Assembly (NCBI GenBank): GCA_029225485.1
Contig: JAQXWO010000041.1
Location: forward strand, 1-38,453
Reading direction: 5' to 3'
Source: Lachnospiraceae bacterium
GTDB taxonomy: Bacteria; Bacillota; Clostridia; Lachnospirales; Lachnospiraceae
Length of the DNA: 38,453 bases
In this document: positions 28,899-37,197 of the stretch, piece after piece
Numbering within the stretch: position 1 is the stretch's first letter
How the letters are laid out: the number at the start of each line of letters is the position of its first letter
Translations under genes and position numbers: made by a program
The notes under the pieces: model-generated
The model's database searches: none
The model's input: only the letters and a program-made list of their open reading frames with translations
Told to the model about the DNA's origin: nothing

Positions 28899-29729
28899 AT
28901 GAAAAACACAAAAACCAGAGTAACGAATGGAGTACTCTTTGTGGTGGCGCTGGTTGTCGCCTTTACGATGATCGTACCTTTTGTCTGGATGCTCAGTGCT
29001 TCGTTCAAACTGAAAAATGAGATTTTCAGTGTGCCGATCCGCTGGATCCCTGAAGTCTTTCATATGGATAACTATGAGACGATCATGCAGGAGATTCCTT
29101 TCCCGCGCTATTTCTTCAATACATTCAAGGTCACGGTCAGCATCACGGCCCTGCAGGTGGTGACTTGCTCCATGGCGGCCTTTGCATTTTCAAAGCTGCG
29201 TTTTCCCGGCAGGGATAAGCTGTTTCTGGCATATCTTGGCACAATGATGGTGCCCTGGCATGCAATAATGATTCCTCAGTTCATCGTGATCCAGAAGCTT
29301 GGGCTGTATGACAATCATCTTGCTCTGATCCTGACCGGTGCCTTTAATGTATTCGGAGTATTTATCCTGAGACAGAATATGCTCAGCATTCCGGACAGCC
29401 TCTGTGAGGCGGCCAAGATCGACGGCTGTGGTCCGGTGGGGATCTTTGTGAAGATCGTTCTGCCCCTGACCAAAAGCGGACTGGCAACGCTGGTGATCCT
29501 GACTTTCAATAATGTGTGGAATGATTATATGGGACCGATGATCTATCTGGACAGCGATGTGAACCGCACGATCCAGCTGGGGCTGGCCACCTTCAAGCGG
29601 GAGTTTGATACAAACTATGGAGCAATTATGGCGGGTACCGTTATTTCATTGATTCCGATCGTCATTGTATATGTACTCGCACAGAAGAATATTGTCGAGG
29701 GTATTGCTTATTCAGGAGTAAAAGGCTGA
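28899..29729 (+). CDS. Sugar ABC transporter permease (MalG-like)
   Basis: A 276-residue second permease completing the heterodimer channel. It opens MKNTKTRVTNGVLFVVALVVAFTMIVPFVWMLSASFKLKNEIF and has six helices. Its EAA loop is CEAAKIDGCGPVGIFVKIVLPLTKSG (about residues 168-193) and the end is NIVEGIAYSGVKG, a classical CUT1 C-terminus. AAAGGAGAGAGG lies just before ATG 28899. It ends the transporter genes and a strong terminator hairpin follows within 10 bases, so the last glycosidase has its own or read-through expression. Confidence 0.92.
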   Translation: MKNTKTRVTNGVLFVVALVVAFTMIVPFVWMLSASFKLKNEIFSVPIRWIPEVFHMDNYETIMQEIPFPRYFFNTFKVTVSITALQVVTCSMAAFAFSKLRFPGRDKLFLAYLGTMMVPWHAIMIPQFIVIQKLGLYDNHLALILTGAFNVFGVFILRQNMLSIPDSLCEAAKIDGCGPVGIFVKIVLPLTKSGLATLVILTFNNVWNDYMGPMIYLDSDVNRTIQLGLATFKREFDTNYGAIMAGTVISLIPIVIVYVLAQKNIVEGIAYSGVKG

Positions 29730-29738
29730 TAAAGATAA

Positions 29739-29788
29739 AAAACAACGGACGGAGGCAGGAAAGCCTGACCTGTCCGTTGTTTTTGTTT
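29739..29788 (+). terminator. Terminator after the sugar permeases
   Basis: AACAACGGAC (29741-29750) pairs with GTCCGTTGTT (29772-29781), with an inner CAGG-AAAG-CCTG stem, and is flanked by an A-run and a T-run (TTTTTGTTT). Confidence 0.85.
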
Positions 29789-29811
29789 CTGAGAAAGGAG
29801 AACATGAAGTT

Positions 29812-31410
29812 ATGGGATTTACATTTTTTAAGGATGAAAAGGGAAGGGATTTTTTCCCTGTCGGTCTGCAGGCACATAATTCCTCCACAGGAACGGACAT
29901 GATCCAGAAGGCTGTCCGTGCAGTTCGTGCATATGGTGGAAACTGTCTGGAAGCGCCGGTGTACTGGTATCGTCTGGAGCCGGAGATGAATACATATGAG
30001 ATGGATCTGGTAAAAAACGTGATCGATCAGGCAAGGGAAGCAGATCTGAAGCTGATTCTGCTCTGGTTCGGCATGAGCAAAAACGGTCATCCGAACTACG
30101 TGCCGGAATATATCAAGCTGGATCCGGATACGTATCATCTGGTAATTGGCGCGGATGGCGCCCCGGTGCCCGCTTTGTCCCCTCACTGCCGGGCGACACT
30201 GGAAAGGGACAAAAATGCCTTTGTGAAGCTGATGGAATTCCTGAGAGCCTATGATGAAAAAGAGCGGACGGTTCTGGCAGTACAGATCGAAAATGAAATG
30301 GGATGTGCAGGAACAGACCGGGATTATTCCAGGGAGGCAGAGGAAGATTACAGAAAACCGGTTCCGGAGGCTCTGCAGTCTGTACGTCTGGAGGACGACG
30401 GGACAGAGCAGATGGAGCAGGGCAGGGAAATGTCACCGTGGAAAAGACAGTTTGGCCGCCATGCCCATGAAGCATTTCTGGCATGGCATCATGCGAAGTA
30501 TGTGGGGGAACTGGCAGAAGCGGGCAAGGCTGTTTATCCCATTCCTCTTTATACCAATGTGATGGTAGGGGAAAACGGATACGAAGAGCCGGGGCTTTGC
30601 TATAATGCCGGTGCGGCCGTTGGCCGTGTGCTGGATATCTGGAAACCCGGTGCGCCGCAGCTGGATCTGATCTGCCCGGATATTTATAATGAAAACCGCA
30701 GAGAATTTACCCGTATCTGCCAGCGGTATGACCGGGAAGATAATCCGCTCTTTATCCCGGAATCTCCGATCTCCGGAGAGGCAAACGCCATGAATGCGAT
30801 CCTGGCGGCAGGAGACTATGGCGCTGTGGGCTACTGCTGCTTCGGTGCGGAGAGTGCACTGGATGAAGCAGGCATGCTGAATGAAGGATGCCGGGATGTG
30901 GCATTGTCCATAAAAACGATCGCTGCCATGGCGCCGCTGCTGATTCAGTACAGAAAGACGGGAAGGATCCATGCGATTGCTGAGGATGAGTTTGAGACCA
31001 GTCATTATCTGAAGCTGGAGCGGTATCATGTAGTTGCTCATTATCTGCATTCTCATCCGATGAATCTTGGCTATACACAGGATGTACATTCGGAGCAGGG
31101 AATGCAGAAACGCATGGTGAGAGGACGGGCACTGCTTGTGCAGACCGGAGAACATGAATTTTATCTGGGAGGCGCCGGCGTGGCTCTGGACTTTATCAAA
31201 CGGCCATACCCGGAGAACGAGCACAGCTACCGGCAGCTGACTTCCCGCTGTAACGGTCAGCTGAACTTTCTGTCTGTGGAGGAAGGTCATTTTGAAGGAG
31301 ATGCCTGGGTCATTGACCGGTACAGAAACGGAGACGAGACGAACTTTTCACAGTATGTGCTGGAGGGGCAGGTGATTCGTATCCGGCTGAATCCGGTTAC
31401 GGGGATTTAG
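29812..31410 (+). CDS. GH35/DUF5597-type beta-galactosidase-like enzyme
   Basis: A 532-residue clan GH-A glycosidase. It starts FFPVGLQAHNSSTGTDM, then EAPVYWYRLEPE and LILLWFGMSKNGHPNYVPEYIK. The probable acid/base Glu is in QIENEMGC (about residue 162) and the nucleophile Glu in PLFIPESPISG (about residue 317). The C-terminal 150 residues resemble the DUF5597 region found after GH35 catalytic domains in bacterial beta-galactosidases, some of which act on xyloglucan (known for this group). No signal peptide. AAAGGAG lies 11 bases before ATG 29812. It follows the transporter, so it likely processes the imported oligosaccharide. GH35 versus GH42 placement is by eye and moderate. Confidence 0.75.
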   Translation: MGFTFFKDEKGRDFFPVGLQAHNSSTGTDMIQKAVRAVRAYGGNCLEAPVYWYRLEPEMNTYEMDLVKNVIDQAREADLKLILLWFGMSKNGHPNYVPEYIKLDPDTYHLVIGADGAPVPALSPHCRATLERDKNAFVKLMEFLRAYDEKERTVLAVQIENEMGCAGTDRDYSREAEEDYRKPVPEALQSVRLEDDGTEQMEQGREMSPWKRQFGRHAHEAFLAWHHAKYVGELAEAGKAVYPIPLYTNVMVGENGYEEPGLCYNAGAAVGRVLDIWKPGAPQLDLICPDIYNENRREFTRICQRYDREDNPLFIPESPISGEANAMNAILAAGDYGAVGYCCFGAESALDEAGMLNEGCRDVALSIKTIAAMAPLLIQYRKTGRIHAIAEDEFETSHYLKLERYHVVAHYLHSHPMNLGYTQDVHSEQGMQKRMVRGRALLVQTGEHEFYLGGAGVALDFIKRPYPENEHSYRQLTSRCNGQLNFLSVEEGHFEGDAWVIDRYRNGDETNFSQYVLEGQVIRIRLNPVTGI

Positions 31411-31637: not shown

Positions 31638-32138
31638 ATGAAAATCAGACAAGCAGCTAAGCAGGATTTCGACCGGATCATGGAAATCTATGAATACGCG
31701 AGAGCGTTTATGGCATCCCACGGAAATCCCAACCAGTGGGGACGGACCAACTGGCCTCCGGTGGAATTGATACGTGAGGATATGGAAGCCGGGAAGAGTT
31801 ATGTATGTGTCCATGAGGACAGGATCGTGGGGACATTTTTCTTTGATCTGGGTGAAGATGTTGAGCCGGACTACCGCCGGATTGAGGGTGGAAAATGGCT
31901 GGACGACAGTGCCTACGGAGTCGTACACCGGATCGCCGGGGACGGTTCTGTGAAGGGGATCGGAGCCTTCTGCCTGGACTGGGCGTTTCGGCAGTGCGGC
32001 CATCTCCGTATTGATACTCATGAAGACAATGTTGTCATGCAGAATCTGCTTCACAAGCTGGGATTCACACACTGCGGGACGATTTATGTGGAAAAAGACC
32101 GCGATCCGCGGCTGGCATATGAGAAGTGTATGGTATGA
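31638..32138 (+). CDS. GNAT-family N-acetyltransferase
   Basis: A 166-residue acetyl-CoA-dependent acyltransferase. It has the MKIRQAAKQDFDRIMEIYEYARAFM opening of many GNATs, YVCVHEDRIVGTFFFDLGE as the beta-2/3 strands, YGVVHRIAGDGSVKGIGAFCLDWAF as the cofactor-binding region (with GIG in place of the usual Q/RxxGxG/A) and LRIDTHEDNVVMQNLLHKLGFTHCGTIYV as the C-terminal motif. The substrate is unknown; members of this type include small-molecule and protein acetyltransferases. AGAGGAAAGG upstream supports ATG 31638, and it has its own strong promoter. Confidence 0.85.
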   Translation: MKIRQAAKQDFDRIMEIYEYARAFMASHGNPNQWGRTNWPPVELIREDMEAGKSYVCVHEDRIVGTFFFDLGEDVEPDYRRIEGGKWLDDSAYGVVHRIAGDGSVKGIGAFCLDWAFRQCGHLRIDTHEDNVVMQNLLHKLGFTHCGTIYVEKDRDPRLAYEKCMV

Positions 32139-32256
32139 AAGGCAAATTCAGAATCGATCCAGAATTGATATGCAGGTATTTTGATTTTGGACGGGACAAA
32201 TCACCGAAACTGTGATACTATGAATCGAGCTATGGAAAAGACAGGAGGAATTGAAC

Positions 32257-33123
32257 ATGAAAATTGCAGTAACCTATGACAATGGGGAAGTATTTCAGCA
32301 CTTTGGAAGAACAGAGAATTTTAAAGTATACGAAGTAGAAGACAATCAGGCGGTTTCCAGTGAGATCATCAGCTCCAATGGTACCGGCCACGGAGCTCTG
32401 GCAGGTCTTCTTGCAGAGCAGGGCATCGATGTACTGATCTGCGGCGGTATCGGCGGCGGCGCTCAGACTGCGCTTGAGGAAGCCGGCATCGAATTAGTAG
32501 CAGGAGCAGAAGGCAATACAGATGAAGTAGTTGAGACCTATCTGAGAGGAGAACTGATCTCTACCGGTTCCAACTGTCATCATCATGACAATGAAGAGGG
32601 CCATTCCTGCGGCGCACACGGATGTGGTGAACATGGATGCGGCGGACATGAGGAAGGTCATTCCTGCGGCGGATGCGGCAGCCATATCACACTGGAAGGG
32701 AAAAATGCAGGAAAAACATGCCGGGTACATTACAAGGGCACCTTTAATGACGGCAGCCAGTTTGACTCTTCCTATGACCGGGGCGAACCGCTGGAATTCA
32801 TCTGCGGTGCAGGTATGATGATCCAGGGATTTGATGCCGCTGTTGCTGACATGGAAGTAGGCCAGATTGTGGATATCCATCTTATGCCGGAAGAGGCATA
32901 CGGTATGCCGGATCCGAATGCGATTATGACCTTCCAGATCGCCCAGCTGCCTGGTTCCGAAGACCTGACTGTGGGGCAGCAGGTCTATCTGACCAACCAG
33001 ATGGGACAGCCTTTCCCGGTAAAAGTCACAGCCAAGGATGATGTTACCATCACACTGGATGCAAACCATGAGATGGCCGGAAAAGAACTGAACTTCAGGA
33101 TCGAACTGGTGGACGTAAAATAG
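32257..33123 (+). CDS. Fusion: NifX/NifB-like domain + Cys/His-rich linker + SlyD-like FKBP isomerase
   Basis: A 288-residue multidomain protein. Residues 1-105 match the dinitrogenase iron-molybdenum cofactor domain (KIAVTYDNGEVFQHFGRTENFKVYE and ICGGIGGGAQTALEEAGIELVAGAEG). Residues 107-150 are a metal-ligand-rich linker with many His and Cys (HHHDNEEGHSCGAHGCGEHG). Residues 152-288 are an FKBP prolyl isomerase of the SlyD type (VHYKGTFNDGSQFDSSYDRGEPLEF, MIQGFDAAVADMEVGQ, the flap insert EEAYGMPDPNAI). SlyD normally has the metal-binding tail at its C-terminus; here it is in front. TTG 32251 is in the track, but AGGAGG at 32243-32248 supports ATG 32257. A role as metal chaperone or metallo-foldase is inferred. 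Confidence 0.85.
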   Translation: MKIAVTYDNGEVFQHFGRTENFKVYEVEDNQAVSSEIISSNGTGHGALAGLLAEQGIDVLICGGIGGGAQTALEEAGIELVAGAEGNTDEVVETYLRGELISTGSNCHHHDNEEGHSCGAHGCGEHGCGGHEEGHSCGGCGSHITLEGKNAGKTCRVHYKGTFNDGSQFDSSYDRGEPLEFICGAGMMIQGFDAAVADMEVGQIVDIHLMPEEAYGMPDPNAIMTFQIAQLPGSEDLTVGQQVYLTNQMGQPFPVKVTAKDDVTITLDANHEMAGKELNFRIELVDVK

Positions 33124-33282
33124 ATTGGATTTTTCGGTATGCAGGAGGCGGTGTTTTCACTGCGCATATCGATCAGGCAGGCGGAGAAGGAACCGCGGAA
33201 TTTGCAGACAGGGCGATTCGGATCTATTGCGGGAAATAGAAGTATACGTGTATGAATGCGTGTGAACAGTAAAAAATGTACG
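33124..33282 (+). other. Gap with a possible short coding remnant
   Basis: One frame reads FTAHIDQAGGEGTAEFADRAIRIYCGK before a stop near 33239, without a start codon or ribosome site. It resembles the C-terminal end of an unidentified enzyme and may be a gene relic. No functional gene is visible. Confidence 0.25.
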
Positions 33283-33287
33283 GAAGT

Positions 33288-33329
33288 ATCCAGTCAGCTG
33301 AACCAGAGGTGAGGGTGGCTGGATTTTTT
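33288..33329 (+). terminator. Rho-independent terminator downstream of the fusion gene
   Basis: ATCCAGTCA (33288-33296) pairs with TGGCTGGAT (33316-33324) with one G-U pair, followed by TTTTTT. A second perfect hairpin, CCTGTCC-GGTCA-GGACAGG, is at 33356-33374 without a long T-run. Confidence 0.65.
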
Positions 33330-33382
33330 GTGGTGAAATAAAAAAGAAATCTTCGCCTGTCCGGTCAGGACAGGATTTGTTC

Positions 33383-33787: not shown

Positions 33788-34189
33788 ATGAAAACAATAA
33801 GGGTAGTGGCAGGAATTATCAAAGCAGCAAATAAAGAAGGTAAATCAATGATCTTTGCCACCCAGAGAGGTTATGGAGACCTAAAAGGTGGCTGGGAGTT
33901 CCCGGGTGGAAAGATTGAAGCAGGAGAAACACCACAGGAAGCTCTTGTGCGGGAGATCATGGAAGAGCTTGAAACAGAAATCAGAGTAGGAGAACTGTTA
34001 GATACGATAGAATATGATTACCCTTCATTTCATCTTTCTATGGATTGCTTCTGGGCAGAGATTATTTCCGGTAATTTGGTACTTAAGGAACATGAAGCAG
34101 CAAAATGGCTCACAAAAAATGAATTAGATTCCGTGGAGTGGCTTCCGGCGGATGTTACATTAATCGATAAAATACGAAGAGCCATGTAA
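33788..34189 (+). CDS. mutT: MutT-like NUDIX hydrolase (8-oxo-dGTP diphosphatase type)
   Basis: A 133-residue NUDIX enzyme that hydrolyses oxidised or non-canonical nucleoside triphosphates. The NUDIX box reads GGKIEAGETPQEALVREIMEELETEI, with all metal-binding Glu residues present; the usual Gly near its end is Glu, common in MutT homologues. The N-terminus MKTIRVVAGIIKAANKEGKSMIFATQRGYGDLKGGWEFPGG and the end AAKWLTKNELDSVEWLPADVTLIDKI are typical of MutT. AGAGGTG precedes ATG 33788, ten bases after the relic helicase stop, so it was probably once in an operon with it. Codon use is AT-richer than in the sugar locus. Confidence 0.87.
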   Translation: MKTIRVVAGIIKAANKEGKSMIFATQRGYGDLKGGWEFPGGKIEAGETPQEALVREIMEELETEIRVGELLDTIEYDYPSFHLSMDCFWAEIISGNLVLKEHEAAKWLTKNELDSVEWLPADVTLIDKIRRAM

Positions 34190-35002: not shown

Positions 35003-36865
35003 ATGATAGTATATTCTGGACTCAAAAGTGACTTTTTATCTGCAGTAGAGCAGGATTCGATTGCTGCAGAAATAGAAGAAGCAATCTATAGTAAAATGCA
35101 TAGAAGAACGGCTCAAAATGAGTTTCGGTCATGGGAAAATTCTTTGGAATATATGTATAAAGTTTTGAATGATCATGCAATTCCCGAGAACGCTGGAGTT
35201 GCTATCGAATATAATATTCCACAGACTTCAAAGAGAATCGATTTTATTATTTCTGGTTACGGGGAGAAGAAAGATCCCAATGTTGTCATTATCGAATTGA
35301 AGCAGTGGGATAAGGTAGAAGCGGTAGAAGGGCAGGATGCACTGGTTGAAACCTTTACTGGCGGGGGAATGCGCAAGGTTGTGCATCCGTCATATCAGGC
35401 ATGGTCATATGCAGCTATGATTTACGACTACAATCAGAATGTGCAGATGGGAAATATTATTCTTCATCCATGCGCATACATGCACAATTACAGAAAAAGT
35501 GATCCCGAGAAATTAGAACAGAATCAATATAAAGAATATGTGGAGGATGCACCGATTTTCGCAAGAGGGGAAGTATCAAAGCTTCGCGATTTTATTAAAA
35601 AGTCAGTGAAATCCGGTGATAATAAACAGCTTTTATATGACATTGATAATGGAAAAATCAAACCATCCAAAAGCTTACAGGATTCTATTAAAAGCATGCT
35701 TGAAGGAAATCAGGAATTCATCATGCTGGATGAACAAAAGGTTGTCTATGAGGAAATTCTGCAGAAATCTTTGCTGTGCATGACAGACCAAAAAAAGAGA
35801 ACTGTCATCGTAAAAGGCGGGCCGGGAACGGGAAAAACAGTAGTTGCGATCAACCTCCTTGCGAAACTCACAAATGAAGGTTTATTTGCACAATATACTT
35901 CGAAAAACAGTGCCCCCAGAAATGTTTATGCCAAAAAGCTGACGGGTCACAAAAAGAGCAGTATCAATAATATGTTTAAGAGTTCGGGCTCTTATGTAGA
36001 TGCCGAATCGAATATCGTCGATGTGATAATCTGTGATGAGGCACACAGATTAAATGATAAATCCGGAATGTTTCATAACCTGGGAGAGAATCAGATAAAG
36101 GAAATTATTCATGCAGGTCTGTGCAGTATATTCTTTATTGATGAGAGCCAGAGAGTAACTCTAAGCGATATAGGAACTGTTGTGGAAATACAGAAGTGGG
36201 CAGAGGAACTTGATTCAGAAGTGTCTGAAATGGAACTGGTTTCTCAATTCAGGTGTAATGGCTCGGATGGATATTTAGCATGGCTTGATGATGTTCTTGA
36301 AATCCGTGAAACTGCTAATTTCGATTTGAAAGATGTGGATTATGATATAAGAATTGTAGATTCACCGAATGAGGTAAGAAACCTTATTGTGGAACGTAAT
36401 AAAGCGCATAATCAGTCACGGATCCTGGCTGGATATTGTTGGGCATGGCTGAAAGAAGGGCAAAATAATACGGATGTTCATGATATCAAAATCGGAGATT
36501 TTGAAATGAGCTGGAATCTTGGCAATACTACGACCTTTGCGATAGACGAAAATTCGGTGAATGAAGTTGGATGTATCCACACTTCTCAAGGTCTGGAATT
36601 CGATTATGCAGGTGTTATTATTGGTGACGACATGCGGTATGAAAATGGTCATATAGTTACTGATTTTACAAAACGAGCGAAAACGGACCAATCCTTAAAG
36701 GGAATTAAGAAGTTATATAAAGAGAATCCTGAACTGGCTTTGAAAAAAGCAGATGAAATAATAAAGAATACATATCGCACACTGATGACAAGGGGTATGA
36801 AGGGCTGCTATGTGTATTGCACTGACAAAAAACTGGCAGATTATTTACGAAAATGCATGGAATAA
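35003..36865 (+). CDS. Nuclease-helicase fusion (PD-(D/E)XK-like N-terminus + DUF2075 P-loop helicase)
   Basis: A 620-residue protein. The N-terminal 200 residues contain a restriction-nuclease-like core: Asp80 in KRIDFIISGYG and the ExK pair in VVIIELKQWDKVEA (residues 98-100), followed by YQAWSYA. The C-terminal part is a DUF2075 superfamily-1-like helicase with Walker A GGPGTGKT (residues 272-279), Walker B ICDEAHRL (about 343-350), FFIDESQRVT, VSQFRCNGSDGYLAWL and the motif HTSQGLEFDYAGVIIG. It could process DNA or RNA ends. It sits in an AT-rich operon with mutT, an HD hydrolase and MazG. Proteins of this type are suspected in defence; direct proof is lacking. Start at ATG 35003 after GGAAGAG. 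Confidence 0.82.
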   Translation: MIVYSGLKSDFLSAVEQDSIAAEIEEAIYSKMHRRTAQNEFRSWENSLEYMYKVLNDHAIPENAGVAIEYNIPQTSKRIDFIISGYGEKKDPNVVIIELKQWDKVEAVEGQDALVETFTGGGMRKVVHPSYQAWSYAAMIYDYNQNVQMGNIILHPCAYMHNYRKSDPEKLEQNQYKEYVEDAPIFARGEVSKLRDFIKKSVKSGDNKQLLYDIDNGKIKPSKSLQDSIKSMLEGNQEFIMLDEQKVVYEEILQKSLLCMTDQKKRTVIVKGGPGTGKTVVAINLLAKLTNEGLFAQYTSKNSAPRNVYAKKLTGHKKSSINNMFKSSGSYVDAESNIVDVIICDEAHRLNDKSGMFHNLGENQIKEIIHAGLCSIFFIDESQRVTLSDIGTVVEIQKWAEELDSEVSEMELVSQFRCNGSDGYLAWLDDVLEIRETANFDLKDVDYDIRIVDSPNEVRNLIVERNKAHNQSRILAGYCWAWLKEGQNNTDVHDIKIGDFEMSWNLGNTTTFAIDENSVNEVGCIHTSQGLEFDYAGVIIGDDMRYENGHIVTDFTKRAKTDQSLKGIKKLYKENPELALKKADEIIKNTYRTLMTRGMKGCYVYCTDKKLADYLRKCME

Positions 36866-36876
36866 AGGAGACACTT

Positions 36877-37197
36877 ATGAAACCAGAAACAATAGAACGA
36901 ATCAGAAAATTTACAGAAGACCGTGACTGGGATCAGTTCCATTCACCGGCGAATCTTGCAAAATCAATTGTAATCGAGGCGGCAGAATTATTGGAATGTT
37001 TTCAGTGGTCAGATGAAAATTTTGACCTGCAGCATGTCAAAGAAGAGCTTGCCGATGTCATGGTGTACACCCAGAATTTACTGGATAAGCTCGGGCTTGA
37101 TGCAGATGATATCATTCATATGAAAATGTCTCAGAACGAAGCAAAATATCCTGTGGATAAGGCAAAAGGGAAAGCTGATAAATACGACAGACTTTGA
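36877..37197 (+). CDS. MazG-like nucleotide pyrophosphohydrolase
   Basis: A 106-residue all-alpha NTP pyrophosphatase of the MazG/iMazG type, hydrolysing (d)NTPs to monophosphates. The metal-binding motifs are visible: SIVIEAAELLECFQW (EExxE-like with Glu residues) and VKEELADVMVYTQNLLDKL, then NEAKYPVDKAKGKADKY at the C-terminus. The track start at 36853 lies inside the preceding gene; AAAGGAG 6 bases before ATG 36877 supports the later start. It begins 11 bases after the nuclease-helicase stop and must be co-transcribed. Such single-domain enzymes may protect from or respond to infection, but a housekeeping role is equally possible. Confidence 0.85.
   Translation: MKPETIERIRKFTEDRDWDQFHSPANLAKSIVIEAAELLECFQWSDENFDLQHVKEELADVMVYTQNLLDKLGLDADDIIHMKMSQNEAKYPVDKAKGKADKYDRL

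Follow-up and report, generated by a model that had tools for sequence, protein, structure and literature searches.

A Nitro_FeMo-Co (Di-Nase) domain, a Cys/His-rich linker and a SlyD-type FKBP module in a single reading frame of Lachnospiraceae

Introduction

Nitro_FeMo-Co proteins occur widely among anaerobes incapable of N2 fixation, and their role outside nitrogenase is largely open. The clients of SlyD, for their part, are hard to find. In a stretch of 38,453 nucleotides from a Lachnospiraceae bacterium (assembly GCA_029225485.1, contig JAQXWO010000041.1), hereafter the window, one open reading frame seems to join modules of both kinds. Is this a genuine single protein, where did its parts come from, and what might it do? 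Here we report that positions 32257-33123 of the plus strand encode a Nitro_FeMo-Co (Di-Nase) domain, a Cys/His linker and a SlyD-type FKBP in a single intact open reading frame. No description of this domain order was found in the open-licence papers searched; each module is already known separately, and fusion sequences in public genomes may already carry automatic names.

Results

As read from the sequence, the frame starts with an ATG at 32257 and runs without an internal stop to the stop codon at 33121-33123, yielding a product of 288 amino acids. The features of the locus are as follows.

32243..32248, plus strand: ribosome-binding site AGGAGG, 8 nt 5' of the ATG (read from the sequence)
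32257..33123, plus strand: whole fusion gene, 288 codons and a stop, kept at full length in about 99 loci among the matches listed
32257..32568, plus strand: Nitro_FeMo-Co/Di-Nase carrier domain, residues 1-104, with His-Phe-Gly at 15-17 and invariant H45 and C62 (Pfam, family profiles, alignment, Foldseek)
32575..32685, plus strand: Cys/His-rich putative metal-binding linker C107-H143, predicted to be disordered (sequence, alignment, AlphaFold)
32698..33120, plus strand: SlyD-type FKBP module, residues 148-288 (Pfam, alignment, Foldseek)
32914-33066, plus strand: insert-in-flap domain, residues about 220-270 (alignment to SlyD, Foldseek)
about 33280..33331, plus strand: likely intrinsic terminator, folding at -24.9 kcal/mol (z -4.9) into a hairpin with a T run

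The three-part anatomy proposed in the first-pass annotation, a carrier-like domain followed by a metal-chelating linker and a SlyD-type FKBP, was borne out by Pfam, alignment and AlphaFold/Foldseek. AlphaFold predicted two confident domains separated by a disordered stretch at residues 110-142 (pLDDT near 30). Upstream, a GNAT-type acetyltransferase gene (Pfam score slightly under the cut-off) ends at 32138; downstream, a NUDIX hydrolase gene starts at 33788. Given the terminator, the fusion gene is probably transcribed alone, as its own transcription unit. Elsewhere in the window, an ABC sugar-transport permease gene is followed by one for a GH35-like beta-galactosidase that carries DUF5597 (28899-31410), and at 35003-37197 the gene of a Schlafen-group-3 helicase-type protein (PF09848) overlaps that of a MazG-like pyrophosphohydrolase by 13 bases, possibly as a two-gene unit.

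The uninterrupted fusion recurs in about 99 loci among the matches listed, cultured Blautia, Anaerostipes and Merdimonas included. A search of named genomes returned at least 80 full-length fusion loci; cultured carriers include Blautia hansenii, B. luti, B. glucerasea, B. schinkii, Anaerostipes butyraticus, Merdimonas faecis and Claveliimonas monacensis. In a spread sample with nearly one genome per genus, 27 of 150 Lachnospiraceae genomes encode the fusion, counting one (G111) in which the search gave two pieces though the gene is one frame. The idea that homologues are always encoded as separate proteins fails, since the full fusion recurs in this family. Outside the Lachnospiraceae sample the fusion is otherwise rare: a class-wide sample contained one beyond the home order (G378, 59% identity), and a phylum-wide sample, screened at a strict threshold, contained it in the home family only. 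The Nitro_FeMo-Co and FKBP_C models of Pfam both matched in 55 of 55 representative fusions. Comparison of the window gene with ten relatives gave dN/dS values of about 0.03-0.13 for both domains, and of 0.06-0.25 for the linker where computable. Both domains flanking the joint are under purifying selection.

The N-terminal domain had been labelled NifX/NifB-like; the fold implied by this label stands, and the affiliation has to be moved. Nitro_FeMo-Co (PF02579) matched residues 9-96 (1.3e-21, 77.1 bits against a gathering threshold of 26.3), and Foldseek paired the predicted fold with the Nitro_FeMo-Co structures PH0822/TM1816 (2yx6, 1o13) at E values of 1e-8 to 1e-9. Among family profiles, however, MrpORP scored highest with 83.9 bits (cut-off 450; match confined to the Di-Nase part), against 21.7 for NifB and 19.6 for NifX, both far from their equivalog cut-offs of 343.65 and 112 bits. 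The nearest branch is the MrpORP Di-Nase domain, not NifX or NifB.

Alignment of 55 diverse fusions revealed H15-F16-G17, G44-H45 and C62 among the invariant N-terminal residues. The His of His-Phe-Gly, a motif common to NifB and NifX, ligates FeMo-co in NafY as H121 (PMC8496260), and NifX holds NifB-co through H35 (PMC13128457). MrpORP carries an Fe-S cluster in its Di-Nase domain, with CXHFGHCE and CDH as the proposed ligand motifs (PMC6345978). Where MrpORP has CXHFGHCE the fusion has FQHFGRTE, with both motif Cys missing. The second motif is present as C107-x-H109 in the window protein and as CDH in the fusion consensus; at this matching position C107 is invariant and H109/H110 nearly invariant in the 55 fusions.

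In the C-terminal part, FKBP_C matched residues 150-219 (5.9e-20, over gathering). The alignment with SlyD and FKBP12-IF(SlyD) chimeras spans residues 151-287 and, by reaching residue 287, indicates that the insert-in-flap domain is present; Foldseek matched the predicted fold to SlyD (4odm, 3cgm) at E values of 1e-14 to 1e-17. Across the 55 fusions Y159, F169, D170, I189 and Y215 never vary, and F280 hardly does. From the alignment and general knowledge, we take these six to be the counterparts of the FKBP12 pocket residues Y26, F36, D37, I56, Y82 and F99. C183 and H208, invariant in 55 of 55 fusions, are further potential metal ligands within this domain. The protein terminates at the last FKBP strand without a C-terminal His/Cys-rich metal tail, its metal stretch lying N-terminal to the FKBP domain. 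Since SlyD tails range from 2 to 50 residues (PMC10653786), the module is of SlyD type, but the protein as a whole departs from canonical SlyD. The window genome has two other open frames matching FKBP_C, of 384 and 468 codons, which exceed SlyD length and are probably of trigger-factor type. The fusion thus looks like the only SlyD-type protein of this genome.

Within its 37 residues, the linker C107-H143 of the window protein contains 6 Cys and 9 His. Measured by a fixed rule in the about 99 loci among the matches listed, it varies from 30 to 74 residues with medians of 6 Cys and 8 His, and is lengthened through HEEGHSCG-like repeats. In the two fusions that diverge most, the linker has 10 Cys (L118) or 8 Cys (L119) and no His, so that ligand richness is retained although the ligand type shifts. 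The first-pass annotation had set this stretch beside the C-terminal metal tail that SlyD normally has. By sequence comparison, inheritance of an ancestral tail from NifX-like paralogues explains it better than relocation of a SlyD tail: the stand-alone NifX relatives have such a stretch and the stand-alone SlyD relatives do not.

Related genomes do carry the carrier and SlyD parts as separate proteins. NifX-like proteins of ~130 residues and single-frame DUF134-NifX fusions end in a Cys/His tail in the style of the linker (HHDHEHGEGHTCGEHGCGSHGC and variants), and a metal tail is missing from the stand-alone SlyD relatives, which are about 140-150 residues long. The simplest history suggested by these forms is that a tailed NifX-like carrier probably gained a tail-less SlyD behind itself. 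Stop codons inside the matches to stand-alone relatives, considered as candidates for readthrough or selenocysteine, proved to be the natural ends of about 130-residue proteins. At L012-L019, L021-L026, L129, L141-L143, L146 and L147, DUF134 shares one frame of about 260-330 codons with a NifX-like domain that ends in a Cys/His tail; these frames may be translated as one protein or from an internal start.

In a tree of the N-terminal domain (104 columns), most stand-alone and DUF134-fused forms fell into a single group (support 100/99), apart from the fusions, four of which lay nearer the stand-alone group. Three DUF134-fused rows were placed among the fusions, which suggests domain exchange. 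In the poorly resolved and weakly supported tree of the C-terminal domain, five stand-alone SlyDs cluster and two sit among the fusions, the latter possibly having arisen by fission. A single origin of the fusion appears likely.

Clustering of the flanking genes, which left out 16 fusion loci where an antisense frame had displaced the fusion during gene calling, revealed no conserved neighbour or operon partner, only lineage-specific genes shared by close relatives. Gene context thus names no client. The first-pass annotation had remarked that the window has no nitrogenase genes; nifD is absent from the window genome as well, none of the 27 fusion genomes has a nifD match over the cut-off, and no link to nitrogenase was found. 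HypB is the classical SlyD partner in NiFe-hydrogenase maturation. No hypB was detected in the window genome; it was below the cut-off in 15 and over it in 12 of the 27 fusion genomes, marginally commoner than in the others (p = 0.056, phylogeny ignored). A role as nickel-hydrogenase helper was rejected on this absence and borderline association.

A role as CODH helper was likewise rejected: cooS is not commoner with the fusion (6/27 versus 27/123 genomes, p = 1, phylogeny ignored). The stand-alone NifX-like group does associate with cooS (p = 0.005, phylogeny ignored). In two other genomes (L168:4308-9175 and L171:696-5284), NifX-like genes that stand alone and encode a Cys/His tail adjoin an Rrf2 regulator and cooS for a monofunctional-type CO dehydrogenase, with a 4Fe-4S (ferredoxin) protein and an NAD/FAD oxidoreductase alongside. 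At L162, L165, L167, L169 and L170, NifX-like or nearby genes lie close to a recurring Cys-motif membrane protein (cluster c4), a thioredoxin-like protein and a flavoprotein disulfide-reductase-like protein, these identities being mostly judged by eye.

Molybdenum hydroxylases were detected in 19 of 27 fusion genomes and 45 of 123 others (p = 0.002, phylogeny ignored). A NifX-like paralogue clipped by the contig end begins about 120 bp downstream of a molybdenum-hydroxylase operon at L172 (window genome, contig C150, 1-5818) and L002; the operon encodes an FAD subunit, a 2Fe-2S subunit, the large subunit and a MobA/MocA-like nucleotidyltransferase. This paralogue context and the co-occurrence weakly point to molybdenum hydroxylases as client.

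Discussion

On balance, we lean towards reading the fusion as a cytoplasmic metal- or Fe-S-cluster-handling foldase. This reading is favoured by the scores of both domains over Pfam gathering, the invariant H15-F16-G17, the kept FKBP pocket, the ligand-rich linker and purifying selection. It also draws on the neighbours of NifX-like paralogues, on the Fe-S cluster bound by the MrpORP Di-Nase domain, and on the partners of SlyD in E. coli and H. pylori, which include metal enzymes and proteins of Fe-S biogenesis (PMC10653786). The lack of an operon partner, the absence of HypB here and in 15 of 27 fusion genomes, and the missing Cys of the first MrpORP motif count against it. The cytoplasmic metal-handling folding factor proposed in the first-pass annotation fits everything found, though no operon names its metal or client.

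We infer cluster binding, metal binding, isomerase activity and client delivery for the fusion, and propose a putative model. Through the surface His of its His-Phe-Gly motif, the Di-Nase domain would dock a metal cluster or precursor, and the flexible linker beside it would buffer metal ions or add cluster ligands. The SlyD module would grip an unfolded metalloprotein client via the insert-in-flap domain and isomerise its prolyl bonds. With cluster docking and client binding in the same polypeptide, cofactor and client would be brought together on one chain. A bolder form of the model, which we hold only tentatively, sees carrier, metal reservoir and client-folding isomerase acting in sequence as a one-polypeptide cofactor-insertion foldase that loads metal cofactors, for example into molybdenum hydroxylases. 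If true, non-N2-fixing gut Lachnospiraceae would possess a class of metalloenzyme maturase that has yet to be described.

Among the alternatives, a metal-buffering or metal-sensing SlyD is conceivable but not what we would expect. Here the linker would store or sense divalent Zn, Ni or Co and tune the isomerase, the Di-Nase domain being a metal-binding or dimerising appendage without a cluster. Ni binding lowers the isomerase activity of E. coli and H. pylori SlyD in vitro (PMC10653786), the linker is free to vary in length by repeat units while keeping its composition, as a buffer might, and the gene stands alone; nevertheless, His-Phe-Gly, H45 and C62 are conserved more strictly in the 55 fusions than an appendage needs. 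A dedicated maturase of molybdenum hydroxylases (the xanthine-dehydrogenase family), carrying a Mo or S species or a 2Fe-2S cluster and folding the apo-enzyme, is improbable. The co-occurrence and the paralogue behind the molybdenum-hydroxylase/MobA-like operon of the window genome speak for it, but no such enzyme was detected in 8 of 27 fusion genomes, the statistic ignores phylogeny and the fusion itself does not adjoin these genes.

Still less credible is a general SlyD foldase with an inherited carrier half gone out of use: the SlyD part is conserved equally or more than the carrier part and certain relatives consist of it alone, yet the carrier half has dN/dS of about 0.04-0.13 and invariant motif residues. 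Joining of two genes by a frameshift or assembly error, a doubt raised by the first-pass annotation and conceivable in a draft genome of 293 contigs, can be dismissed given the same fusion in about 99 independent loci among the matches listed, isolates included.

Under the preferred reading as a metal- or cluster-handling foldase, a fusion conserved in abundant gut bacteria would physically couple cluster carriage with client folding. The questions of the Nitro_FeMo-Co role and of SlyD clients thus become approachable through a single gene of Blautia or Anaerostipes, and their culturable hosts make the fusion worth a bench test.

The fusion combines traits of several known systems. With the FeMo-co and NifB-co carriers NifX, NafY and the C-terminal domain of NifB it has in common the Nitro_FeMo-Co fold and the cluster-ligating His-Phe-Gly motif, whereas its hosts lack nitrogenase and its scores are far under the NifX and NifB equivalog cut-offs. 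It differs from the MrpORP Di-Nase and the Desulfovibrio orange protein (ORP) in having neither a P-loop NTPase nor the Cys of the CXHFGHCE motif. Like SlyD of E. coli, H. pylori and T. thermophilus, it has the FKBP fold, the insert-in-flap chaperone domain, the conserved pocket and a flexible Cys/His-rich stretch; unlike them, it bears that stretch before the FKBP domain and an added Di-Nase domain, in a genome without HypB. NifX-like proteins in Lachnospiraceae and elsewhere in the Clostridia, whether stand-alone or DUF134-fused, have an N-terminal domain about 50-74% identical to that of the fusion and the same Cys/His tail, but stop at the tail, where the fusion continues into its SlyD module.
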